This document shows, piece by piece, positions 25,907 to 41,235 of a stretch of 49,415 nt of DNA. The position numbers and the translations under genes were made by a program. Source of the DNA: Candidatus Anaerobutyricum avicola. Lineage in GTDB: Bacteria; Bacillota; Clostridia; Lachnospirales; Lachnospiraceae. The notes beneath the pieces were generated by a model that saw only the letters and a list, made by a program, of their open reading frames with translations, was not told the origin of the DNA and ran no database searches. Numbering within the stretch: position 1 is the stretch's first letter; each line of letters begins with the position of its first letter. Location: contig DXGQ01000044.1 in NCBI GenBank assembly GCA_019113845.1, positions 1 to 49,415 of the forward strand, written 5' to 3'.

Positions 25907-25956
25907 AGGAAAAGGTTTGCATTTTCGGAATGTATTTAAAAAGCAGGAGGACAGGC

Positions 25957-27825
25957 ATGTTTGAAGATAAAAACAAAGAAAATACCTCAGGGCTGGCGAA
26001 GTTATTCCGGCGGAAGGAAAAAGAGGAGGAGCCGGTTTCTCTTTACGAGCCGGAGATGGAGTTTGTCACAGAGGAAGAACTGAAAAAAGAGCAGGAAGCA
26101 AAGCAGAAGGCGGAAGCCGCGGGCGCCGGGTCGGATGAAAAGACCGGCGCAGACAGCGCAGGGACAGAAGAGACAAAGGCGGGCAGTCCACGGTCAGGCT
26201 TTTTTAAAAAGCCATCGTCCGTATCAGGAGAAAGCGATGGCGCAGGCAGCGAAAAAAATGGTGTAAAAGCCGGATTCGGCCGATGGTTTCACAAAAAAGA
26301 GCCAGAGATTCCGGAAGGTACGGCGTCGGGACCGCAGAATTCTCTGTTTGATGACGAACCGATCCTGTATGACGCGGATGAGGCGAAGGGACTGCGGAGC
26401 CTATCCAAAAAGAAGATCATCGCGATCGCCGGTGCTGCAGTGATCGTTGTCGGTGCCGCCGCGTATTTTATCATAACAAATCTCGGCGGGTCGGTGGACG
26501 GTACCGCCTATGTGGAGTCTGTGGACGATATCATGGGCTATGGCAGCGGAAGCGGGATGAACAACCGCTACACCGGCGAGGTGGAGCCGCAGGATTCCTG
26601 GAACATCACGCTGCAGTCGGATCTGTCCGTGGCGGAGTGTTATGTGGAGGAAGGAACCCAGGTGAAAGAAGGCGACCGGCTGTTTTCCTATAATACTGAG
26701 GAACTTCGTCTCGCAAGAGAGCGGGCAGAGCTTGAGGTGGAGACTCTGCAGAGTGAGAATGAGCAGCTGCAGAGGGACATTCGCTCCTATCAGAGTGACC
26801 TGAATTCTGCCAGCACCAGAGAGAGGATCGAGCTGCAGACGGAGATCCTGACGGCACAGACTACCATCAAGCGGAATGAGTACAGCATTGATTCGGCAAA
26901 GGACGAGATCGAGGATCTGAAAAAGAATATCCAGGATGCCACCGTCACCAGCAAGATGAACGGTGTGGTGCAGAGCATCAACGAGGAAGTGGGCGCCGGA
27001 TCTGACGCAGGAAGCTCAGATGAGGAGGATTACACAGATTATTCGGATACAGGAGACGATTCCACCTACATGACCATCGTGGCCGTGGGAGATTACCGGG
27101 TCAAAGGAAATGTATCGGAGACCAACGTCTGGTCTCTGGCGGAAGGAGACCCGGTCATCATCCGTTCCAGAGTGGATGAAAATGCCAGATGGACCGGTGT
27201 GATCAGCACCATCAACACGGATGAGACGGCGGATGCGGAGGAGAGTTCCGACGATATGATGTACATGGATGATACCATGGGAGAGTCCGCTGCCACCTAT
27301 AACTTTTACGTGGATCTGGACAGCGATGACGGTCTGATGATGGGACAGCATGTCCTGATCGAGCAGGACTTCGGGCAGGATGAGGAGCGGGAAGGTATCT
27401 GGCTGCCGTCAGCATATCTTCATATGGACGGAGACAAATACTATGTCTGGCTGTCCAATCGCAGAGAACGGCTGGAACTTCACGAAGTCAGTGTCGGTGA
27501 ATACAATGAGGATCTGGACGAGTATGAGATCCTGGACGGACTTTCCGGGGATGATCTGATCGCCAGCGACACGGGAAGCCTGCAGGAAAATATGAAGACC
27601 ACAACGGATATCTCTGAGATTGACAGCACAGACGAGTATTACGAGGAAGAGACCTCGGATGACACGCTGTATGACGACGGAAGCGGAGAGTATTACGATG
27701 AAGGACTCTCCGAAGATGATCTCTATTATGATGAAGAGCTTTCCGACGACGATCTCTACTATGACGATTCTGCGGATGGCGTGGACATCAGCGATGAGGC
27801 AGATATGTCGGACGAAGGATTTTAG
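25957..27825 (+). CDS. HlyD/MacA-family membrane-fusion adaptor with long cytoplasmic N-terminus and acidic Tyr-rich tail
   Basis: A 622-residue adaptor. Residues ~1-150 are charged and disordered and precede the only membrane segment (~153-175), so they should be cytoplasmic. After it come a split lipoyl domain (CYVEEGTQVKEGDRLF ~229-244 and DATVTSKMNGVVQSI), a coiled-coil hairpin between the halves (~250-325), and a beta-barrel region. The last ~70 residues are very acidic, with repeated SEDDLYYDE/SDDDLYYDD units. It should link an ABC exporter to the outside face of the membrane. ATG 25957 follows GCAGGAGG. First gene of a four-gene operon. Confidence 0.8.
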   Translation: MFEDKNKENTSGLAKLFRRKEKEEEPVSLYEPEMEFVTEEELKKEQEAKQKAEAAGAGSDEKTGADSAGTEETKAGSPRSGFFKKPSSVSGESDGAGSEKNGVKAGFGRWFHKKEPEIPEGTASGPQNSLFDDEPILYDADEAKGLRSLSKKKIIAIAGAAVIVVGAAAYFIITNLGGSVDGTAYVESVDDIMGYGSGSGMNNRYTGEVEPQDSWNITLQSDLSVAECYVEEGTQVKEGDRLFSYNTEELRLARERAELEVETLQSENEQLQRDIRSYQSDLNSASTRERIELQTEILTAQTTIKRNEYSIDSAKDEIEDLKKNIQDATVTSKMNGVVQSINEEVGAGSDAGSSDEEDYTDYSDTGDDSTYMTIVAVGDYRVKGNVSETNVWSLAEGDPVIIRSRVDENARWTGVISTINTDETADAEESSDDMMYMDDTMGESAATYNFYVDLDSDDGLMMGQHVLIEQDFGQDEEREGIWLPSAYLHMDGDKYYVWLSNRRERLELHEVSVGEYNEDLDEYEILDGLSGDDLIASDTGSLQENMKTTTDISEIDSTDEYYEEETSDDTLYDDGSGEYYDEGLSEDDLYYDEELSDDDLYYDDSADGVDISDEADMSDEGF

Positions 27826-27877: not shown

Positions 27878-28570
27878 ATGCTTTTAGAGCTTAAGCATAT
27901 TTACAAAAATTACAAGCAGGACAAGATCGTCGTGCCTGTGTTAAAGGATATCAATATTTCCATAGATGAGGGAGAGTATGTGGCGATCATGGGTCCTTCC
28001 GGTTCCGGAAAGACAACGCTGATGAACATCATCGGCTGTCTGGACCGGCCCACGGAAGGAGAGTATTTTCTGGAAGGTCGATCCATTGTCAATTATACGG
28101 AGAATCAACTCTCTGATCTGCGGTTAAAGACGCTGGGCTTTGTCTTTCAGAGTTTCAATCTGCTGCCAAAGCAGACTGCCCTTGACAATGTGGCGCTGCC
28201 GTTGAGCTACGCGGGGATACCGGTGAAGAAGAGACGGCAGATTGCCTTTAAGACTCTGCAGAGAGTCGGACTCGCGGACCGGGTGAACTTCAAGCCGTCG
28301 CAGTTGTCCGGCGGACAGCAGCAGAGGGTGGCCATTGCCCGGGCGCTGGTCAATAATCCGAAGATCATTCTGGCGGATGAACCGACAGGAGCGCTCGACA
28401 GCCGCTCCGGCACGCAGGTGATGAAGCTGTTTCAGCAGCTGAATGACGAGGGAGTCACGGTGATCATGATCACGCATGACGCTAATATCGCCGGACATGC
28501 CAAAAAGGTTCTTCGTATTCTGGACGGAGAGATTGCAGATGACTCACAGGAAGGAGGCCGGATACTTTGA
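27878..28570 (+). CDS. MacB/LolD-type ABC transporter ATP-binding protein
   Basis: A 230-residue ATPase of the MacB/LolD group. Walker A is GPSGSGKTT, signature LSGGQQQR, and Walker B ILADEPTGALD; the H-loop reads MITHD. Such ATPases drive mechanotransmission permeases that export peptides, lipids or drugs rather than form a classic channel. ATG 27878 (MLLELKHIYKNY) has GAAAGGAAG upstream; the longer frame from 27620 is a shadow of the upstream adaptor. Its stop overlaps the TTG start of adaptor 2 (TTGA). Confidence 0.93.
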   Translation: MLLELKHIYKNYKQDKIVVPVLKDINISIDEGEYVAIMGPSGSGKTTLMNIIGCLDRPTEGEYFLEGRSIVNYTENQLSDLRLKTLGFVFQSFNLLPKQTALDNVALPLSYAGIPVKKRRQIAFKTLQRVGLADRVNFKPSQLSGGQQQRVAIARALVNNPKIILADEPTGALDSRSGTQVMKLFQQLNDEGVTVIMITHDANIAGHAKKVLRILDGEIADDSQEGGRIL

Positions 28571-31500
28571 AGAACAGAAAGAAGATCATTATTCTTGTGA
28601 TCGTTGTGGTGCTGATTCTCGCAGCCGTCATCGGCGGCGTGGTTTACTTCATGAGAAACCGAAGCGGTTCTGTGGTGGATGTGTACTCCATGGAGCTGTT
28701 GAACAACGCCGGATTTGCAGGCGGCGAGTCCTCTCTGAGCGGCACCATTACTTCCGATTATGTGCAGGAGGTATATGCGGACGAAGAGCAGAAGGTGGAA
28801 GACGTCTACGTAAAACAGGGCGATTATGTAAAACAGGGCGATAAGCTCATGAAATACGATGTGGAGCAGCAGGAACTGGATCTGCAGCTGCAGGAGCTGG
28901 AGATCCAGTCTGCCAAACTGGAACTGGAAGATCTTGAGGACGAGCTGGAGAAAATGAAAAGCGCCCGGGCGTCCGGGACTGTGGATGGAAGCGGCGCTTC
29001 CGTGATGAACGCTTCCTTAAATCTTTCTTCCCTGAAAGGAGATATCCTGGCGTCGGTGATGGATGATACGACCTCCACCCGCACTACGGAAGAAGATACG
29101 GACGGGGAAAAAGGAACAGAAGTCCCGGAATCAAAAGAGACCGGAGAGGAAGGAACAGAAACCTCCGGGACAAAAGAGAACGGAGAAGAAGGGACAGAAA
29201 CTTCCGGGACCAAGGAGACCGGGGAAGAAGAAGAGGAAACTTCCGGCACAAAAGAAGACGAAAGTCAGGAAAGCAGCGGTACAGACCGCTTCACAAAGAA
29301 AGCGCCTGCCGTCAGAAAGACAGAAAATGGAACGAATGGTTCGGATAACGGGGATGATACAGGAACCGGGGAAACCGGCGACGGAACCGATAGCGAGGAG
29401 TCGGACGACGGAACAGAGAACAGCGAAGAAGAGACCGGCGATGAAACCGAAACTGGCGAGACCGGGACCGACGGAGAAGAAGGAGAGACCGGAAGCACAG
29501 AGGAGACCGGTGAAGAGGAAGAAAGTCCTCTCCTCTCTCTTGCGGATGCACCTTCCGATGCCACCCCCGGGACCGGAACCAGCGAGGATCCGTACATTTT
29601 TGATCTGAACGTAGATGGCACGATCAGCGGCGAGCTGCTCAGTCAGCTGGTGGGAGAGGAAGAAAAAGAAGTTTATGCGTATTTCTTCCGGTATACCAGT
29701 GAGGCAAAGTACGAGGAAGACGCCGATAAGGATGCGGAATCCAGAGAGAATGACGCGGGAAGGATCGTCATCAGTCCGCAGAAGTTCGCAGCTGCCTGGA
29801 CAAAGGAAGAATACAGCTTTGATGAAGTGCAGTCCGCAGTGCGCGACCGTGTCTTAAAAGACAGTATCGTCTCGGTCAGTGACAGTGTCCGGGGCGGTGG
29901 CAGCGACGGGGCGCCGTATGCCTTCCTGATCCGGGGCGATGAAAATACAAAGGCAATCTCCGGCTCCGTGATCCGAGAGCTGCTGGAAAAGGAATCGACG
30001 GCAGTGTTCAAAGTCTTTGAATCAGAGACCCTCTACGATGCCAGCGAAGGCGGGGCATCGGCAAGCTTTGTGCTGAATCCGGTTTACGACAAAGACGGAT
30101 TTGACGCCCGTGCGGTGTACTCCATTGCGGATCTGCGGACAGCCATCCGGGAGAGAAAGCTCAAGAGCAGGATAGAGATGGTCACAGATAACACTTATGG
30201 AGACGGAAGTGCCAATGATGCTTATATTTATCTGCTGAGTAAAGACGGAACGGTTCGCGGTTCCGTTGTGTTGATGCTGGCGGGCGGCGATTATTACGCG
30301 GAATTTCAGGAGTTTGCGAGTGAGGAAGCGTATGAGAAGAGCCCGTATTCCCCGGAGCGCAGCGTGAGTATCCAGCCGGGAACAGCAATCACCGGGATTG
30401 AAGCTTCCAGAGAATATACGCTGCTTCAGTTAGAGTCAGCGCTCAAAGCGGCGGAGGCGGCGTCCCGGGTTCCTGGTATCTTAAAATCGGAGATCACCGA
30501 TAAGGTCAAAGATGCTTCCGGCGGTACCGGAACGATGGAGGATCCGTATATATACAGACTGGTCAGCGGAGGAAGAGTTCGCGGCTCAGTCATCAATGAC
30601 CTGATAAAAAACAAAGGATTCGCCACTTTCTATGAATATGATTCGGAGGAAGACGGTCGGCAGGGTAATGCAGCGAATTCCATTACCATACGGCCGAGCA
30701 CGATTTTCCGTGAGAGCGTCGCATCCTTTGGATGGTATACGCTGGCAGATCTGAGTGAGGCTATGGTCGTGGCAGATCAGATCGAGATCCAGCCTGCCAG
30801 AAAGACGGTCACTACCGGAAATACCTATAACTTTACGGCAAAGCTCACCGGAAAGAACAGCGATGTGCTGACAGTGACCTGGGAGCTGAAACGGAACGAG
30901 TCAAACAATACGACGCTGATCAACGGCACGCTGACGGTGGGGGCAGATGAGACGGCAGATTCTCTTCGGCTGATCGCTTCCGCGGGAGGAAAACGGGGCG
31001 TGCTTACCGTAAAGGTAAAGAAAGATACCTCTTCCCATGCGGAAAACGGGACGGATAGTGGCTCGGGAAGTACCGGCGGAAGCTATGACGGCGGCGGCAG
31101 TTACAATGGCGGCGGCAGCGGCGGCACCATTGATTACAGTACGTACACCGCGGAGGAACTGGCAGACGCCATCGCCGATAAAGAGGCGGAGATCGCGGAG
31201 GCCAGACAGAGTCTGACAGAAGCGAGGATCAATTACCAGGAAGCCAAGCAGGAAGTGGATGACGCGACCGTGACGGCGAAGGTGGCCGGCGAGGTTACGC
31301 TGGCTTACACGAAGGAGGCCATGCCGGAAGACGGTTCTCCGGCAATCATCGTACGGGGACAGGACGGTATGTACGTCAATGTGGATGTCAGTGAGATGTC
31401 TCTGGATACGGTGAAAGTGGGAGGAACCATTTACTGTACTTCCATGGAGACCTATGAGCAGTATGAGGCGGAGATCGTGGAGATCTCTCCGTATCCGGTA

Positions 31501-31905
31501 TCAGGCGCAGGCGAGGACTACATGTATGACGGCATGTCCAATCCGAACAGTTCCTACTATCCGGTTGTGGCGTACATTGAAAATGCGGACGGGCTTGTGA
31601 CCGGGGAGACCGTGGAGGTGTCCTACAGTCAGCAGTCCATGGGAACCGTGTCGGAGGAAGCCATCTATCTGCAGGAAGCTTATGTGCGCACCGACGACGA
31701 TGGCAGAAGTTATGTGTACAAGGAAGGAAAAAACGGCCGGCTGGAAAAACAGTATGTAAAGACCGATCAGGTGCTGTATGGACAGTATGTGGAGATCCTT
31801 TCCGGAGTGACGATGGATGATCACATCGCCTTCCCGTACGGAAGAGATGTGAAGGAGGGAGCAAAGGTGGAACGCTCCGAAAATACGGATAATATTATAT
31901 ACTAG
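28567..31905 (+). CDS. giant HlyD/MacA-like adaptor with four inserted ~105-residue repeats
   Basis: A 1112-residue adaptor starting at TTG 28567, with AAGGAGG (28551-28557) upstream and a TTGA overlap with the ATPase gene. Membrane segment ~7-29. First lipoyl half ~77-98 (VYVKQGDYVKQGDKLM), first coiled-coil arm ~99-131. Then a ~720-residue insertion: Glu/Thr/Gly low complexity (~165-325, with repeated TETSGTKE), four repeats beginning near residues 334, 443, 543 and 653 (core pattern DPYIYxL..G.VxGSV), and an Ig-like stretch (~738-835). A Gly/Ser linker follows. The second coiled-coil arm (~855-897), second lipoyl half (DATVTAKVAGEVTLAY) and barrel complete the adaptor. I do not know the repeat family; it could bind wall polymers or the exported cargo. 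Confidence 0.85.
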   Translation: MKNRKKIIILVIVVVLILAAVIGGVVYFMRNRSGSVVDVYSMELLNNAGFAGGESSLSGTITSDYVQEVYADEEQKVEDVYVKQGDYVKQGDKLMKYDVEQQELDLQLQELEIQSAKLELEDLEDELEKMKSARASGTVDGSGASVMNASLNLSSLKGDILASVMDDTTSTRTTEEDTDGEKGTEVPESKETGEEGTETSGTKENGEEGTETSGTKETGEEEEETSGTKEDESQESSGTDRFTKKAPAVRKTENGTNGSDNGDDTGTGETGDGTDSEESDDGTENSEEETGDETETGETGTDGEEGETGSTEETGEEEESPLLSLADAPSDATPGTGTSEDPYIFDLNVDGTISGELLSQLVGEEEKEVYAYFFRYTSEAKYEEDADKDAESRENDAGRIVISPQKFAAAWTKEEYSFDEVQSAVRDRVLKDSIVSVSDSVRGGGSDGAPYAFLIRGDENTKAISGSVIRELLEKESTAVFKVFESETLYDASEGGASASFVLNPVYDKDGFDARAVYSIADLRTAIRERKLKSRIEMVTDNTYGDGSANDAYIYLLSKDGTVRGSVVLMLAGGDYYAEFQEFASEEAYEKSPYSPERSVSIQPGTAITGIEASREYTLLQLESALKAAEAASRVPGILKSEITDKVKDASGGTGTMEDPYIYRLVSGGRVRGSVINDLIKNKGFATFYEYDSEEDGRQGNAANSITIRPSTIFRESVASFGWYTLADLSEAMVVADQIEIQPARKTVTTGNTYNFTAKLTGKNSDVLTVTWELKRNESNNTTLINGTLTVGADETADSLRLIASAGGKRGVLTVKVKKDTSSHAENGTDSGSGSTGGSYDGGGSYNGGGSGGTIDYSTYTAEELADAIADKEAEIAEARQSLTEARINYQEAKQEVDDATVTAKVAGEVTLAYTKEAMPEDGSPAIIVRGQDGMYVNVDVSEMSLDTVKVGGTIYCTSMETYEQYEAEIVEISPYPVSGAGEDYMYDGMSNPNSSYYPVVAYIENADGLVTGETVEVSYSQQSMGTVSEEAIYLQEAYVRTDDDGRSYVYKEGKNGRLEKQYVKTDQVLYGQYVEILSGVTMDDHIAFPYGRDVKEGAKVERSENTDNIIY

Positions 31906-32002: not shown

Positions 32003-33262
32003 ATGCTGGAAAATATACGATTATCTTTTCAGGGAATCTGGGGACACAAGCTTCGTTCCCTTCTCACAACGCTCGGTATCATTATCGGTATCGCAGCCAT
32101 CATCGCCATTGTCTCCACCATCCAGGGAACCAATGAACAGATTCGGAAGAACCTGATCGGTTCCGGTACCAACACAGTAAATGTGCGTCTGGTGGAAAGC
32201 GGGGACTGGGATTATGATATGGCATACGGCAGTATCCCATCCGGTATTCCGGTGCTTGACAGCGAGATGCGGGAAGATCTTAATGATATTGACCATGTGG
32301 AAGACGCCTCATTATATACAGTCCGGACGGCAGTGGATTACATTTACTATAATGATACTTCCCTCCAGGGCGGCGAGCTGATCGGGGCAGATTCCCATTA
32401 CTTAAATACCTGCGGCTATGTGATGACAAAAGGCAGGGCGTTCACCGAGGGCGATTACACAAATTACCGCAAGGTAGCGGTCATTGATACGACGGCTGCC
32501 GACAGCCTTTTTGACGATGAGAATCCGGTGGGTAAGACCATTGATATTCAGGGGGAGCCGTTCACGATCATCGGTGTGATCGAGGAATCCTCGCAGTTTG
32601 AACCGGTCATAGAATCGGTGGAGGATTACTATCAGTATATGTACGATGATGCCGGGAGCAGCGGCTCTGTGATCATACCGGATACGGTGTGGAATATCGT
32701 CGGACAGTACGATGAGCCGCAGAATGTGCGTCTGCTGGCGGATTCCACCGACGCGATGAGCGAGGTGGGCAGAACGGCTGCCAATCTGCTCAATGACTTT
32801 GTGGATAACGAAACGATCAAATACAGCGCGGAGGATATCATGGAGCAGGCACAGCAGAATGAACAGCTCAGTGAGTCCACCAATCAGCAGTTGATCTGGA
32901 CAGCGAGTATCTCTCTGCTGGTCGGCGGCATCGGTGTCATGAATATTATGCTGGTGTCTGTGACGGAGCGTACCAGAGAGATCGGTCTGAAAAAGGCCAT
33001 CGGCGCCCGGAAGAATAAAATACTGGCGCAGTTCCTGACAGAGGCAGCGGTGCTTACCAGCCTCGGGGGAATTCTCGGGACGATCACAGGAATCATCTTT
33101 GCGGAGGCCATCAGCCGGATCTCCAATGTTCCGGTGGCTATCAGCATACCGGCGGTCATCATCGCCATCGTGTTCTCCATGCTGATCGGTATCATTTTCG
33201 GGTTCTTCCCGGCAGTCAAGGCGGCGAATCTGGATCCAATCGTGGCGCTGCGGCACGAATAA
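32003..33262 (+). CDS. MacB-type ABC transporter permease
   Basis: A 419-residue permease with one N-terminal membrane span (~18-42), a large extracytoplasmic MacB-PCD domain (~45-290), and three C-terminal spans within the FtsX domain (SLLVGGIGVMNIMLVSVTER ... RTREIGLKKAIGARK). It forms the membrane part of the exporter with the ATPase at 27878, flanked by two adaptors. AAAAGGA lies ~12 nt before ATG 32003. It ends with ALRHE, usual for the family. The operon terminates at 33352. Confidence 0.93.
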   Translation: MLENIRLSFQGIWGHKLRSLLTTLGIIIGIAAIIAIVSTIQGTNEQIRKNLIGSGTNTVNVRLVESGDWDYDMAYGSIPSGIPVLDSEMREDLNDIDHVEDASLYTVRTAVDYIYYNDTSLQGGELIGADSHYLNTCGYVMTKGRAFTEGDYTNYRKVAVIDTTAADSLFDDENPVGKTIDIQGEPFTIIGVIEESSQFEPVIESVEDYYQYMYDDAGSSGSVIIPDTVWNIVGQYDEPQNVRLLADSTDAMSEVGRTAANLLNDFVDNETIKYSAEDIMEQAQQNEQLSESTNQQLIWTASISLLVGGIGVMNIMLVSVTERTREIGLKKAIGARKNKILAQFLTEAAVLTSLGGILGTITGIIFAEAISRISNVPVAISIPAVIIAIVFSMLIGIIFGFFPAVKAANLDPIVALRHE

Positions 33263-35032: not shown

Positions 35033-35062
35033 ATGACACTTCCGTTTTCTCTATGTTACAAT
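35033..35062 (+). promoter_or_regulatory. promoter of the giant surface-protein gene
   Basis: ATGACA (35033-35038), 18 nt, TACAAT (35057-35062) with TGT giving an extended -10. It leaves a ~130-nt leader before ATG 35200. Confidence 0.6.
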
Positions 35063-35199
35063 TTTTATGTATTTGTAAGAAAAATTCTACGATTTTTGTT
35101 GATTATGACGGAGAAAAGCGATATTTTTGTCGTGATATAAGCGGCGATAGCAAAGGGATGACCCGCGGCGTGATACGCCGGAACAAAGGAGGGGGAGCG

Positions 35200-38100
35200 A
35201 TGAAGAGGAAGAAGTTACTTGTGTGGATTCTGTTGTGCGCGATGCTGGTGACGGACATTCCGGCACGGGCGGCGGTGGAAAATAATAATGATGTATATTA
35301 TATCAGCACAGCGGAAGAACTGGTGAAGATACTGGAGGCAACGAGAGGGAAAGGGTACTTTGAGCTGACGGAGGATATCGATCTGAGCGGATATGATTGG
35401 GAACCCATCGGTCTGGTTGGAACCTTCAACGGGAACGGATATGCGCTTCGCAATGTCACTATAACAGGAGCTGCGAAGGGGAATTTAGATTCGTATGTGG
35501 GTCTGTTCTATAATTGGGGTCTTACGCCGGGTGCGGAAGGATATGTGACAAACCTCACTCTGACCAATATAAAGATTGATGTGAATGTTCTGGAAGGGGA
35601 ACAATATGAAACGGCGTACGTCGGTCCTTTCGCCGGGAATGTCGGAAGTATCAATAATTGTACGGTTTCCGGCAGTGTAACAGTGACTGGCGGGGAGAAT
35701 ATGCCGGTAGATGGCCGTATCGAGATGACCGGTCTTAAAAATGCCAGTAACTGCCGGGTCGATCTGGACATGAGATATGAAGGCGGGGAGACCGAACTTT
35801 CTACCGTGTATGTGACGGCGATGTCTGCCTGCACCAACTGTCAGTATGAGGGAGATGTAAAAGCGATTGACAACACAGGTTCTGTCACTATATATGCAAA
35901 AGCAGCGGAAGCCTCCAGGGGATGTTCTTTTACCGGAAATGTGGAGGCGAACGGCTCTGGCTATGTGGAAGCCCGTGGCATGGAAGGCGCCGATTGTTAC
36001 ATGATAGGGGATATTTCGGCAGTTTCTTCCGCCGATAAAGCGTTCGCTTACGGGACAGGAGGGAACGGCAATCTTCTGGAAGGAAATGTCACTGCCCGGG
36101 GAGTGGGAACGGAGTGGAATTCTGTGACGGCTTTCGGCGTGTATGAAGCGGCGACAGAAACCGGAGAGGCAAATTATCCGGTTCATGAGGCGAAAGATTG
36201 CCAGGTGAGGGGAAATATCACGGCTTCTGAAAGTGGGAATTATAATTCGAATGAGAGAGAGGCTTTCGTGGCCGCCTACGGAGTATACAGTACCAGTGCG
36301 GATGATAACGTGACGGGCTGTTATGTCTGGGGCGACGTCAGCGCCAGCAGTGAAAATAATCAGGCGCAGGCGGCGGGGCTTTATCTGTGCTCGGAAAGCT
36401 ATTTTCAGGGGAATGTGACGGCAAAAGGAAACGCGAAGGAAAAGTCTTATGGTTATGGCACATCAGCTTCTGGCAATTATGGGGGAAAGGATAATTATGC
36501 AGCAGGAGATATAACCGCGTGGAATCCTTCCGGCGCGGCAGAAGCGGATGGAAGCACAGCAGGGGAGAACTGTTTTGTGGAGGGCGATGTTTCCGCTTCC
36601 GGAATGAACGTCTATGCGTACGGGCTGGATGATATTTCCTTAAATTCTTTCTATTATGGGGATGTGAGAGCGGAAGGAAAGGAAGAAGCCAATGCCTCCC
36701 TGATACAAAATGCGCAGAATTCCTATGCCGCAGGAGACGTCTATGCACAGAGCAGCGAGGTGGCCAGAGCAGATGGAATCTACCCAAACAATACTTCCGG
36801 TAATAACGCCGTCGGTAATATTACGGCGGAAGGGGGAAAACCGTCAAGCTCCTATGGTTCTGGCGGCGACGGGGGCAGTTTCTCAGGCACGGTAACCAGT
36901 ATCTACGACGGCAGGACGATTTCCGCCGGTGCGCCGGGGGCGGCGCAGTATTTTATCGAGGACAGATATGATAAAATATATATATCCGATACGATACCAG
37001 AAAATATGTATTATGATAAAGTTGTCGGCAGAGCCGTCTACGGCCAGGGCGGAAGTGTGACAGAGCCGGAAGAGTGGGGGCCGGAAGGAGGAGAGGACGA
37101 TCGGAAAGACATCTATTCTCTCCGGATTATGGATGCGCGGACCGATAAGCCGGTGACTGACGCCACGGTGGACGTGGATGGAACAAAGTATCAGACCGAT
37201 AACAATGGAATGATCACGGTGACGGGCAGCCGTTATATAAAAGGGCTGGAGGTAGTACAGGGCGGTTCCATTGTACATACTCAGAGCAGGATTTACGCAA
37301 AAGAGGGAAGAACAAAGAATATTTATGTCAACGGGCTGAAGCTGGATCTTCAGGATCTTGATCTAGGAGAAAGCGGAGAAACCACGGTGACAGGTCCGGA
37401 GATCAATATAAAGGGGAAGAGTTTTCCGCTGTTTGAGCTGCCGTTTTCCTTTGAGATGGATCTGGTGGAGTCCATGCGGATCGCCTATGATGACGAGAAC
37501 AGAGTATATCAGGTGATTCTGGACAGCGATCCGGACGACGATGAGGATGGGATCGCGGACGCCGCAGATTCTTTCTGGCTGGGAGACTATCAGCGGATAA
37601 AGCGGCAGTGTGAAAATGCATACCGGGATTTCCGGGAAAAGTCCTTCTCGGGACTGAACAGAAGTTTTGGCATCGACAGCAGCGTGGACGCCAGCGGTTA
37701 TCTGGAATTTGCTGTGACAAAAGACGGTCTGGAGTTGCAGGACGGGAAGCTGGTTTTTGTGGTGGCCGGTTCTTTTGCCGCCAGCCGTCCGATACCGCCC
37801 GCGCCGTACATTTTTCTGACATTCGGTATTGAAACCGGTTTTCAGGCAGAGAGTACGCTGACGCTGGAGGAGGCGGTGTACATTGATCCTCAGATATCAG
37901 CGGAAGCGGATATCTCCTTTGATCTGACGCCTTCGGTGGGCGTCGGAGCCGGTCTGGATAAGATTTTATCGGCGGAAGTGGGGATAGAAGGCCCGTTAAA
38001 CGCCAATCTGAATCTGCCGTTCAGAAGCATGAAAGAAAATGCAAAGCTTACCCTGGCGTCGAGAATTTACCTGCAGCTGACGGCTTTATCTTTTCGCATG

Positions 38101-41100
38101 AGGTTCAGCAAAACCTTTGCCGACGTACAGCTTTATCCAAAAGAGGAAGAAGACGATTCCGGCCTGCAGACCTTTGCTTCCATACCGGACGACGGAGCGA
38201 TGGAGCTGATTGACAGAAGTTATCTTCGCGGAACTTTCGCTCGCTCTTCCGGACGGAATACCTCCGCCGGCGATACGGTAAAAGATCTGGTCTATCCATA
38301 TGGGAAGGCTCAGACCATCACCCTGTCAGGGTCTACAAAGCTGATGGTCTGGCTGGATGACGACCAGAGCAGAGATCTGGCTAACAAGACGGCGCTGTAT
38401 TACAGTATCCTCAGAGATGGAGAGTGGAGCGAACCGCAGCAGATTGAAAACGACGGAACGCCGGACTTTGATTTTAGTCTCTGCCGGGCAGGTTCCGGCG
38501 CAGCCCTTGTATGGCAGGACGCCAAAGAGCCGGTGGCTGAGAATGTCACGGAAGAAGAACTGGCGAAAGAGGTGGAGCTTTCCTACATAGAATACGATGG
38601 CGGCGAGTTTCAGAAGGTCATCAGCCTTACCGAAGGAGAGAACTATGAATACAGTCCGAAGCTGTACAGCACCTATTCCGATCGTTATGTCATATGGACG
38701 CAGAACGACTCTGACAGCATACTTCCGGGCGCCGGCGATACAGCGGAAAGTATTTATTTCACACATATTGATTATGATGGCAGAAGCTATCAGAAACAGG
38801 AGACGAAAGTCGTGGCGGAAGGCATTTCTTCCCTGTATGAGACTGCTGTGGGAGAGGACGGTCTGGTGGCATGGCTCACGGGCAGCGACATGAATCCTGA
38901 CAATGAAGGGGCGAGAAAGCTGTCTGTGAAGGAAATGTCCGGTCAGGAAAGGACAGTGGAATATGAACAGAATACCCGCCTGTCCAGTCTGCAGTTGAAC
39001 GGGAGCCAGGTATTCTTTTCCGAGGAAGGAAGCATCAAATACCTGTCGATGGAAGAGGAGCCGACCCTGATCGTGGAAGATCAGGGCATGGGAGACGCGC
39101 CTGTCAGATTATTGTTCCGGGAAAACACCAGTAATTATTTGCCGCTGGCTGTCGTATACGAGGTGCAGGACGGTTTCACATCGAATCTCTATGCTTCTTA
39201 TCCTGGCAGCGGCGGAACTTACACCAATCCGGTGCCGGTGACAGACTGGGATGAGAAGATCCGGGCGTGGAGCATTCTGGAAGGAATGGACGATACGATG
39301 GAGATTGGCGCTTTGCTGGCCGATATTCAGGTTGGCGAGGCAGAAAATGATATGTCTGAAACCGCGTGGCTTGTCTGGACTACCGCCAACCCGCAGGAAG
39401 ATATCATCCTGACGGAAGTATTTACCGAAGACGACCATATTTCCAGAGGCAGCACAGCGACCTTTTTGTTAAATGTGGAGAATCATACGAAAGAGAATCT
39501 GAAAAATCTCACGATAAAGATAGCCGGAGCGGACGGCAACAGTTTTTATGAAGGGGAAACAGACGCATTTGTTAAGGCCGGAGGCATCAATACGATTGCG
39601 GTGAACGTCCCGGTTCCTGCTGATTTCCAGCAGCAGGAGCTGACATTTACCGTGACCGGCGGTGCGGAAGAAGCGGACATGGAAAATAACAGCCGTACAT
39701 TTCTGGCGGGCGCGGCCAACCTGAGCCTGGAACTGAACGACCGCCATCTTCATGACGACGGATATCTGGAAGCGGTTATCACCAATAACGGAAGTGCGGA
39801 CGCCTCCGGGGTGGATTTGAAGATAACCGGGGAGGATGGAGCAATCATCTATGAAGATACGGCAGGAAATGTAACGGCCGGCGGTGAAAAAAGGGTGACA
39901 ATCCCGATTCCGGATGGTAAACGTACATTTGATGATGATACGGACAGTTACGGTATCGTCGCCGAAGTATCCCACGATGGGGAGGAGAGCACGAAAACTG
40001 ACAATGAAACCATGTTCCGCATCCGTCCGCCGCAGATTACACAGATTGCGATTGCTGAGAGAACACTCACTATGGATATAGGAGAAATTTACCAGCCGTC
40101 GGTACAGGTTTATCCTTCCAATGCACTGAACAAAGAGTATCGCGTCTGCTCTGATAACGAAGATGTCGTCACGGTAGATGAGAACGGAACAATTCGGGCA
40201 GTTTCCGAGGGAACAGCGGATATTATCTTTATGGCAGTCAATTCCAGCGCGGCATCCAGAGTAAACGTCACTGTGGGTAGCGGAAGTGATACGGGAACGA
40301 CCCACAAGATCTTATTGGATGCCGGTGGCGGAACAGTTTCGCCGCAGCGCCTGGAAGTGCAGGACGGGCAGACAGCAGTGTTGCCATGCCCGATGCGGGA
40401 AGGGTACTACTTCGTCGGTTGGTATGACGCTCCGGAAGGAGGCAGCGAGATTAACAGTGAGACGGCAATCACACAGGATATGACCCTGTATGCCCGGTGG
40501 ACAGATACCAGATTTCCAAATCCGGAGCTGCCGGAAATTGATAACCCAGATCCGGATAACCCAGATCCCGATGTTCCGAATCCGAACCCGGGAGAAACAG
40601 ATCCTGACGACCCAACTCCGGATACTCCGTCGCCAGATCCAACGCCAGGCGGCAACCCTGGAACCGGAACCACATCACAGCCGGGTACGCCGACGCAGCC
40701 GGGAGGAAGCGGAACAACGCCACAGCCAGGTGGTAGCGGAGCGGGAACCGGTCAGACCGGCAATAAGACGCCGCAGGCAGCGGCACAGTATCGTGTCGGC
40801 GATATAGTGACGGCCAGCGGACTTCGTTACCGGGTAACCGATGCCCGGTCCGCACAGGGACAGGTACAGATGATCGGTGCGTCGGGCGCTGCGAAGAAGG
40901 CGGTGAATATCCCGGCAGAGATTTTTTCTCCTTCCACCGGACAGCGTTTTAAAGTAACAGCTATCGGAAATAATGCGTTTAAAAATCAAAAGAAGCTGCG
41001 TAAGCTGACGATAGGAAAGAACGTAAGAGTCATAGGAAAGAAGGCGTTCTTCAACTGTAAGAAGCTGAAAAATATTACCATGAAGACGAAAACTCTGACG

Positions 41101-41235
41101 AAAAAGACGGTTGGAGCGAAAGCGTTCCGTGGCATCTATGCCCGGGCGGTCATCAAGACGCCGAAACAAAAGCGGACGCTGTACAGAAAGATTCTGCGGG
41201 CGAAGGGCGTCGGTGTTCAGGTTAGAATCCGTTAG
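35200..41235 (+). CDS. 2011-residue secreted multidomain surface protein (beta-solenoid, CARDB, Big_2, InlB-type and BspA-like repeats)
   Basis: Signal peptide 1-25 (MKRKKLLVWILLCAMLVTD..., ARAA). A GLUG-like start (~54-90) leads into about eleven short repeats (~150-550) of the type C-x-x-x-GDVxA...AxAxG, probably a beta-solenoid. Next come a carboxypeptidase-like beta-sandwich (~630-690), a DPDDDEDGIADAADS calcium-type loop (~775), and a long region with propeller-like strands (~1025-1400). Two CARDB-like domains (~1405-1610), a Big_2 domain (~1612-1694) and a Listeria-Bacteroides repeat (~1703-1768) follow, then an Asp/Pro linker and a BspA-type leucine-rich C-terminus (IGNNAFKNQKKLRKLTIG). 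No LPxTG motif; the basic LRR end may hold it to the wall. ATG 35200 has AAAGGAGGGGG; the frame upstream is not translated. Probably an adhesin; ligand unknown. Confidence 0.85.
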   Translation: MKRKKLLVWILLCAMLVTDIPARAAVENNNDVYYISTAEELVKILEATRGKGYFELTEDIDLSGYDWEPIGLVGTFNGNGYALRNVTITGAAKGNLDSYVGLFYNWGLTPGAEGYVTNLTLTNIKIDVNVLEGEQYETAYVGPFAGNVGSINNCTVSGSVTVTGGENMPVDGRIEMTGLKNASNCRVDLDMRYEGGETELSTVYVTAMSACTNCQYEGDVKAIDNTGSVTIYAKAAEASRGCSFTGNVEANGSGYVEARGMEGADCYMIGDISAVSSADKAFAYGTGGNGNLLEGNVTARGVGTEWNSVTAFGVYEAATETGEANYPVHEAKDCQVRGNITASESGNYNSNEREAFVAAYGVYSTSADDNVTGCYVWGDVSASSENNQAQAAGLYLCSESYFQGNVTAKGNAKEKSYGYGTSASGNYGGKDNYAAGDITAWNPSGAAEADGSTAGENCFVEGDVSASGMNVYAYGLDDISLNSFYYGDVRAEGKEEANASLIQNAQNSYAAGDVYAQSSEVARADGIYPNNTSGNNAVGNITAEGGKPSSSYGSGGDGGSFSGTVTSIYDGRTISAGAPGAAQYFIEDRYDKIYISDTIPENMYYDKVVGRAVYGQGGSVTEPEEWGPEGGEDDRKDIYSLRIMDARTDKPVTDATVDVDGTKYQTDNNGMITVTGSRYIKGLEVVQGGSIVHTQSRIYAKEGRTKNIYVNGLKLDLQDLDLGESGETTVTGPEINIKGKSFPLFELPFSFEMDLVESMRIAYDDENRVYQVILDSDPDDDEDGIADAADSFWLGDYQRIKRQCENAYRDFREKSFSGLNRSFGIDSSVDASGYLEFAVTKDGLELQDGKLVFVVAGSFAASRPIPPAPYIFLTFGIETGFQAESTLTLEEAVYIDPQISAEADISFDLTPSVGVGAGLDKILSAEVGIEGPLNANLNLPFRSMKENAKLTLASRIYLQLTALSFRMRFSKTFADVQLYPKEEEDDSGLQTFASIPDDGAMELIDRSYLRGTFARSSGRNTSAGDTVKDLVYPYGKAQTITLSGSTKLMVWLDDDQSRDLANKTALYYSILRDGEWSEPQQIENDGTPDFDFSLCRAGSGAALVWQDAKEPVAENVTEEELAKEVELSYIEYDGGEFQKVISLTEGENYEYSPKLYSTYSDRYVIWTQNDSDSILPGAGDTAESIYFTHIDYDGRSYQKQETKVVAEGISSLYETAVGEDGLVAWLTGSDMNPDNEGARKLSVKEMSGQERTVEYEQNTRLSSLQLNGSQVFFSEEGSIKYLSMEEEPTLIVEDQGMGDAPVRLLFRENTSNYLPLAVVYEVQDGFTSNLYASYPGSGGTYTNPVPVTDWDEKIRAWSILEGMDDTMEIGALLADIQVGEAENDMSETAWLVWTTANPQEDIILTEVFTEDDHISRGSTATFLLNVENHTKENLKNLTIKIAGADGNSFYEGETDAFVKAGGINTIAVNVPVPADFQQQELTFTVTGGAEEADMENNSRTFLAGAANLSLELNDRHLHDDGYLEAVITNNGSADASGVDLKITGEDGAIIYEDTAGNVTAGGEKRVTIPIPDGKRTFDDDTDSYGIVAEVSHDGEESTKTDNETMFRIRPPQITQIAIAERTLTMDIGEIYQPSVQVYPSNALNKEYRVCSDNEDVVTVDENGTIRAVSEGTADIIFMAVNSSAASRVNVTVGSGSDTGTTHKILLDAGGGTVSPQRLEVQDGQTAVLPCPMREGYYFVGWYDAPEGGSEINSETAITQDMTLYARWTDTRFPNPELPEIDNPDPDNPDPDVPNPNPGETDPDDPTPDTPSPDPTPGGNPGTGTTSQPGTPTQPGGSGTTPQPGGSGAGTGQTGNKTPQAAAQYRVGDIVTASGLRYRVTDARSAQGQVQMIGASGAAKKAVNIPAEIFSPSTGQRFKVTAIGNNAFKNQKKLRKLTIGKNVRVIGKKAFFNCKKLKNITMKTKTLTKKTVGAKAFRGIYARAVIKTPKQKRTLYRKILRAKGVGVQVRIR

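Follow-up and report, generated by a model that had tools for sequence, protein, structure and literature searches.

What the adaptors of Gram-positive MacAB-like exporters do without an outer membrane has been posed as a question (PMC5985334), and the hairpin that they retain has been called puzzling, with the suggestion that these proteins act as dimers with distinct roles (PMC4338810). For the pneumococcal system, the apex of a modelled assembly stands approximately 154 Å from the membrane, similar in extent to the space beneath the peptidoglycan, which is the layer into which the tube was proposed to deliver (PMC5768738). Purified YknX is reported to bind peptidoglycan (Xu 2017, as cited in PMC5985334). 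The adaptor gene described here, MFP2, lies within a 49,415-nucleotide stretch of DNA from Candidatus Anaerobutyricum avicola (contig DXGQ01000044.1 of assembly GCA_019113845.1; hereafter “the window”), which is one entire contig of a genome totaling 2.87 Mb. On sequence grounds, MFP2 was confirmed as a MacA/YknX-type adaptor whose halves are split by approximately 730 residues at the hairpin tip, and we place at roughly 45% the probability that this tip is a putative wall-engaging crown replacing the outer-membrane dock.

The adaptor profile TIGR01730 matched MFP2 in two pieces (model positions 16-96 at amino acids (aa) 56-136 and 105-319 at aa 870-1101), so that 733 residues replace 8 model positions. 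Because the whole-protein score of 61.9 bits fell under the curated cut-off of 94.9, MFP2 was placed in the wider adaptor superfamily and not under TIGR01730. The order expected of that superfamily, a lipoyl domain split around a helical hairpin and then a beta-barrel, was found using TIGR01730, an alignment to Spr0693 of Streptococcus pneumoniae, and the elements of an AlphaFold2 (AF2) model, in agreement with the original prediction of adaptor halves parted by a large hairpin-tip insertion. When a profile of 35 MFP2 proteins was compared to PDB sequences, Spr0693 (E 6e-27) and MacA entries (E 2e-12 to 1.6e-8) were matched; both halves of the profile aligned to Spr0693 and to Aggregatibacter actinomycetemcomitans MacA, and the Escherichia coli MacA entry shown aligned over the second half only. 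In the full-length AF2 model, block values of the predicted local distance difference test (pLDDT) were 88-94 in the N-terminal half and mostly 76-93 in the C-terminal half, with one loop at 51. The predicted template modeling score (pTM) of the whole model was 0.37. Foldseek placed MacA first for this model (9qgy, E 3.1e-12; 5nik, E 2.0e-11), at a root-mean-square deviation (rmsd) near 30 Å. The case for a single adaptor is made from the order of the sequence matches and from same-clade relatives with tip gaps of 38-44 residues. Three ring residues of E. coli MacA (EcMacA) have been described as conserved, namely E231, Y276, and T293 (PMC8277102). The equivalent of E231 is MFP2 E943, invariant in 35/35 MFP2 proteins, and Y998, matched to Y276 by its neighborhood, was present in 35/35.

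From its N-terminal to its C-terminal end, the insert holds an acidic disordered linker of ~190 residues, four modules of ~105 residues, an Ig-like sandwich, and a Gly/Ser linker. The features of MFP2 are as follows (window coordinates, strand).

28567-31905, +: MFP2 adaptor, 1112 aa, TTG start
28576-28662, +: N-terminal helix, aa 4-32, putative membrane anchor (AF2 helix; hydrophobic by eye)
28729-28857, +: first half of the lipoyl domain, aa 55-97 (AF2 strands; Biotin_lipoyl_2 at aa 76-98, below cut-off)
28864-28959, +: hairpin arm 1, aa 100-131 (AF2 helix)
28975-29547, +: acidic disordered linker, aa 137-327 (pLDDT near 30)
29548-29871, +: tip module 1, aa 328-435, the least constrained copy
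29872-30177, +: tip module 2, aa 436-537
30178-30501, +: tip module 3, aa 538-645
30502-30768, +: tip module 4, aa 646-734
30769-31026, +: Ig-like beta sandwich, aa 735-820 (aa 735-818 in the AF2 model, pLDDT 94-97; I-set and Big_2 below cut-off)
31027-31146, +: Gly/Ser/Asp-rich linker, aa 821-860 (pLDDT under 50 over aa 828-858)
31150-31260, +: hairpin arm 2, aa 862-898 (AF2 helix)
31261-31881, +: second lipoyl half, barrel, and membrane-proximal part, aa 899-1105, including E943 (TIGR01730)

The four repeats were compared pairwise as segments aa 328-442, 436-544, 538-643, and 646-750. Scores were 85-112 against shuffle means of 27-30 (z 11.8-17.3), and 0/500 shuffles scored as high in each of the six pairs. 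Per-position module profiles, built from the window protein and three relatives in the genus (loci L022, L023, and L024), aligned profile to profile in 6/6 pairs with probabilities of 95.5-98.3%, compared with 0.2-0.8% for five reversed controls. Failure of such an alignment had been set beforehand as the outcome that would speak against the four repeats of ~105 residues, and it was not seen; the shuffle comparisons and the profile alignments together rule out a chance repeat. The motif DPYIY that the copies were said to share is complete in copy 4, whereas the others read DPYIF, APYAF, and DAYIY. Modelled alone with 46 sequences, copy 4 reached a pLDDT of 90.0 and a pTM of 0.76 and was given a beta-beta-alpha-beta-alpha-beta-alpha topology, which corrects an earlier description as strand then helix. 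Copy 1 was poorly predicted in the full-length model (much of aa 355-446 under pLDDT 50), and the segment originally called Ig-like was the best-predicted part of that model (blocks covering aa 731-820).

When 46 copies of the module were scanned at E 0.05, no Pfam family was found in more than one copy and no NCBIfam family in more than two, and no PDB sequence matched the module under E 0.35. A known family was thus rejected, and the expectation that the repeat has no named family held in these three collections. Foldseek, which can miss small domains, returned no usable match for copy 4 (best E 0.37 in the PDB and 0.23 among viral models). We regard the tip module as an unnamed alpha/beta domain with a fold that, as judged from copy 4 only, is without match among the structures searched.

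The stretch first noted as acidic and of low complexity carries a net charge of -49 over aa 137-333 and is predicted to be disordered. A 39-nt tandem repeat of 3.9 copies was also found inside it by Tandem Repeats Finder (29102-29255, +). Among related adaptors, 87/89 inserts were negative, with a median of -0.134 per residue versus -0.063 in the adaptor halves. Such charges would suit a cargo trap, whereby cationic peptides or other substrates are caught close to the wall by the acidic linker and modules and are either passed on to the transporter and membrane or kept away from them; some Gram-negative adaptors are described as binding their substrate (PMC4338810), and related Gram-positive systems as acting against peptides (PMC5985334, PMC5768738). 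We nevertheless consider this explanation unlikely, given that the modules carry a net charge of only -2 to -13 per copy, that two inserts from the genus are slightly positive, and that constraint is weakest in the acidic linker.

MFP2 is, by the profile matches of its neighbors, the second adaptor in an MFP1-ATPase-MFP2-permease operon for a predicted two-adaptor, MacAB/YknXYZ-like ATP-binding cassette (ABC) exporter. A MacB_PCD/FtsX permease and an ABC ATPase adjoin it, as required for a MacB-type ABC exporter operon. The neighboring genes are listed below.

25930-27825, +: MFP1, first adaptor, 631 aa, uninterrupted hairpin (TIGR01730, 75.0 bits over aa 211-556, below the cut-off of 94.9)
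27878-28570, +: ABC ATPase of MacB type, 230 aa (PF00005, E 2.7e-34)
32003-33262, +: MacB-type permease, 419 aa (MacB_PCD, E 9.6e-32; FtsX, E 3.3e-21)

The MFP2 open reading frame (ORF) is one continuous frame whose start codon, TTG, lies within a 4-nt overlap with the ATPase stop. A start codon (TTG, GTG, or ATG) was aligned at this TTG in 9/14 genus relatives, and an ATG one codon later in 3 more. Given that the ORF was unbroken in 14/15 fetched genus relatives, a mis-joined or frameshifted MFP2 was ruled out; in the remaining one (L028:5271-7582, -, genome G402), the gene is present as two ORFs, which reflects a broken gene or an assembly fault. The gene order was kept in 15/15 fetched Anaerobutyricum loci, where the operon is flanked by an aminotransferase and a glmM-like gene (names by eye). 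In MFP1, 16 residues separate the two half-profiles; by eye, ~160 residues precede its hydrophobic segment, and its C-terminal tail is strongly acidic and rich in Tyr, Asp, and Glu. Beyond the glmM-like gene, a 2060-aa ORF (35053-41235, +) with List_Bact_rpt, Big_2, and BspA-type leucine-rich repeat matches over cut-off likely encodes a surface protein. An outer-membrane channel had been presumed lacking in this lineage. Consistent with this, OEP/TolC (PF02321) had no match in the window's genome (98% complete) and had matches in 7/14 control genomes, so that the outer-membrane factor of a TolC-dependent tripartite pump was not found in this genome.

A set of adaptors not chosen by module was obtained from a loci search seeded on N-terminal adaptor patterns. 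In its 68 loci, both halves were found for 70 adaptors; the tip gap spans 72-866 residues in 42 of these and 9-44 in the other 28. Using a broader module profile (A3), the module was detected in 30/42 long-tip and 0/28 short-tip adaptors; the loci counted here had themselves supplied the modules from which A3 was built, and a genus-only profile (A1) finds 13/42. A tree was then built by a quick method on the adaptor halves alone, with some genus rows added (80 rows, of which 77 differ; L168 and L153 are long branches). One branch of 30 rows, all with short tips, holds the window's MFP1 (support 80, weak). A second branch of 49 rows (support 95) holds its MFP2 and comprises 36 rows with the module, 11 with other long tips, and 2 with short tips; one row stands apart from both. 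ATPase and permease genes were found near MFP2 in 42/44 loci, most commonly in the orders MFP1-ATPase-MFP2-permease (21) and ATPase-MFP2-permease (18). Wall contact would be a fitting role for a tip module found on one of two adaptor types. By eye, two adaptors (L130:3299-5674 and L138:3366-5747) seemingly have their module halves parted by a long Pro/Thr/Glu-rich stretch, and three MFP2 adaptors with no module detected (L126:7185-10943, L128:7191-10340, and L114:7967-10258) carry large, unrelated, helical-looking tip inserts.

At E 0.01, A1 matched 44/397 genomes of the window's family (35/334 genera). Loci were fetched from 40/42 of the matching genomes outside the genus (a further match locus of one is L037), and 39 of these 40 are adaptors with both half-profiles and with the module match in a long tip between the arms; the exception, L107, was dropped as a weak match to what by eye is an AAA-type ATPase. 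Given that L068-L107 were picked by module, no prevalence was taken from them. With A3 at E 0.001, matches were found in 51/299 family genomes (one per genus), not each checked and including the genome of L194. At the level of the order, A3 matched 31/392 genomes at 0.01, of which 20 belong to the window's family and 9 to a second family, where 4/4 fetched matches are adaptors. Across the phylum, 4/398 genomes matched, including the window's own, and the other three matches are not adaptors. The candidates dropped were L202 (G604), a weak match that is a recombinase; L196 and L197, weak matches that are glycosidase-like by eye; L194 (G083, in the window's family), a 2436-aa surface-like non-adaptor with 31 residues matched; and L195 (G562), where re-search returned nothing. 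Most detected cases outside the genus have one module, and some have two to four. Among the carriers are gut bacteria, including Anaerobutyricum hallii and Eubacterium ramulus. Taken beyond the original prediction, the tip module thus appears to be widespread and to be carried by the second of two adaptors. Surface proteins of another lineage (L198:1618-2418, -, and L204-L209), which have helical repeats and several of which end in an anchor-like C-terminus, contain a domain that resembles the second half of the module. A profile of this domain (A5) aligned by hhalign at 24% (E 8e-4) to A3 and at 0.1% to A1, so the link between the module and wall-anchored proteins remains a lead.

Within Anaerobutyricum, the module profile matched 16/24 genomes including the window's own (10/11 of those of high quality). 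Four copies were counted in 6 of the 16 members (including L027, with one short copy), three in 3, two in 4, and one in 3 (including the broken gene L028). The last copy forms one group in 14/16 members with moderate support (82/80). Upstream copies cluster according to position in the window, L022, L023, and L024 (the last for copies 2 and 3 only), so the array of these four did not arise by recent expansion within any one of them. In another relative, L110, a DUF1542 match (PF07564, E 6.5e-8, over cut-off) lies upstream of its two modules. DUF1542 is a repeat of Gram-positive surface proteins.

Constraint was determined against three relatives as the ratio of nonsynonymous to synonymous differences (pN/pS), which is quoted because synonymous divergence was saturated in several cells. 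Values were lowest in the adaptor halves (0.12-0.18), followed by the Ig domain (0.20-0.26), modules 3 and 4 (0.21-0.28), module 2 (0.34-0.38), module 1 (0.36-0.61), and the short linker (0.40-0.57), and were highest in the long linker (0.64-0.67). Constraint on the folded units declines from arm 2 toward the N-terminal linker, and the tip module looks constrained. These values bear on a passive spacer, in which a Gram-positive adaptor tip freed of docking duty tolerates any folded or disordered insert. Inserts of different kinds at this one site, a copy number of one to four in the genus, and the high ratios of the long linker and (up to 0.61) of module 1 would all be expected of it. This explanation is nonetheless quite unlikely, since modules 2-4 and the Ig domain (0.20-0.38) lie above the halves but well below the linker, the last module keeps its grouping in most of the genus, and matches to the profile come from 50 further genera (not checked one by one).

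In the wall-engaging reading, MFP2 would form a tube seated on the MacB-like permease, either by itself or in a ring mixed with MFP1. The hairpin tips, the parts that dock TolC in Gram-negative bacteria, would meet the inner face of the peptidoglycan, where the tip modules may act as a crown that positions the tube. Amphiphiles or peptides could then leave the exporter into the wall or past it instead of returning to the membrane, and extra module copies and the long linker would extend the reach. The position of the insert, the missing OEP, the DUF1542 of L110, the constraint on the modules, the invariant E943, and the kept gene order all favor a wall role, as do the apex distance in the pneumococcal model and the reported binding of peptidoglycan by YknX. 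Several points weigh against it. No known wall-binding domain was matched in MFP2, and wall contact was inferred, not directly seen. The packing of the MFP2 halves was not established by structure (pTM 0.37, rmsd near 30 Å), and the equivalent of EcMacA T293, placed by eye, is not kept (T in 3/35). Not every adaptor of this type requires the module: of the 49 rows in the MFP2 clade, 2 have short tips and 11 have long tips in which none was detected. The chain also leaves arm 1 and re-enters arm 2 through disordered linkers and thus cannot simply lengthen the tube.

The same linkers tell against a built-in duct, in which the tip modules of the ring subunits would stack into a wall-crossing tube and do the job of TolC without an outer membrane. 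The tip position, one invariant ring residue, and the tandem copies speak for such a duct, but with both chain ends rejoining the hairpin through disorder, a full model without a confident overall arrangement, and a single module in most detected cases outside the genus, it is very unlikely. We give even less weight to a recruiter, a tip that binds another wall or surface protein such as a peptidoglycan hydrolase, as in FtsEX-like systems. The MacB/FtsX permease family is described as including regulators of hydrolases (PMC8277102), but no candidate partner stands beside the operon, with its aminotransferase and glmM-like flanks (partners elsewhere were not searched for), and we hold this to be highly improbable.

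Returning to the wall-engaging crown, a broader proposal is that Lachnospiraceae made the MacAB-type, TolC-docking tip a dedicated, swappable wall-interface module, with a fold unmatched among solved structures, on one of two specialized adaptors, tandemly extended in Anaerobutyricum; this remains tentative and somewhat doubtful. The main texts of the open-licence literature consulted in part make no mention of the tip module or of tip inserts in Lachnospiraceae adaptors. If true, the proposal would give monoderms their own equivalent of the outer-membrane dock and account for the retention of hairpins in Gram-positive adaptors. A recurrent domain exactly at the docking tip gives the question of hairpins without an outer membrane a concrete object, and it adds an unnamed domain from gut bacteria that varies from one to four copies within one genus.

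DUF1542-containing surface proteins are not known to be adaptors; DUF1542 occupies part of the tip insert of L110 and was not found in the window's MFP2 by a Pfam scan. MacA of MacAB-TolC shares with MFP2 its domain order and the E231 equivalent and gave the first Foldseek matches, albeit with poor superposition. It differs in that its short tip docks TolC, whereas the MFP2 tip is a multidomain insert in a genome where no TolC-type protein was found. The YknWXYZ system of Bacillus has a MacB-like permease and ATPase in common with this locus, as well as a hexameric Gram-positive adaptor that keeps its hairpin and for which peptidoglycan binding is reported; it has one adaptor and an extra membrane protein, YknW, and the portions of PMC5985334 that describe it mention no tip modules. 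Also close is the MacAB-like Spr0693-0694-0695 of S. pneumoniae, with Spr0693 (5xu0) as the best PDB sequence match of the MFP2 profile. Both systems have a separate ATPase and permease and an adaptor with hairpin, lipoyl, and barrel parts, but the pneumococcal one has a single adaptor, with a 22-residue untraced hairpin turn (Pro142-Gly163; PMC5768738) where MFP2 has hundreds of residues.

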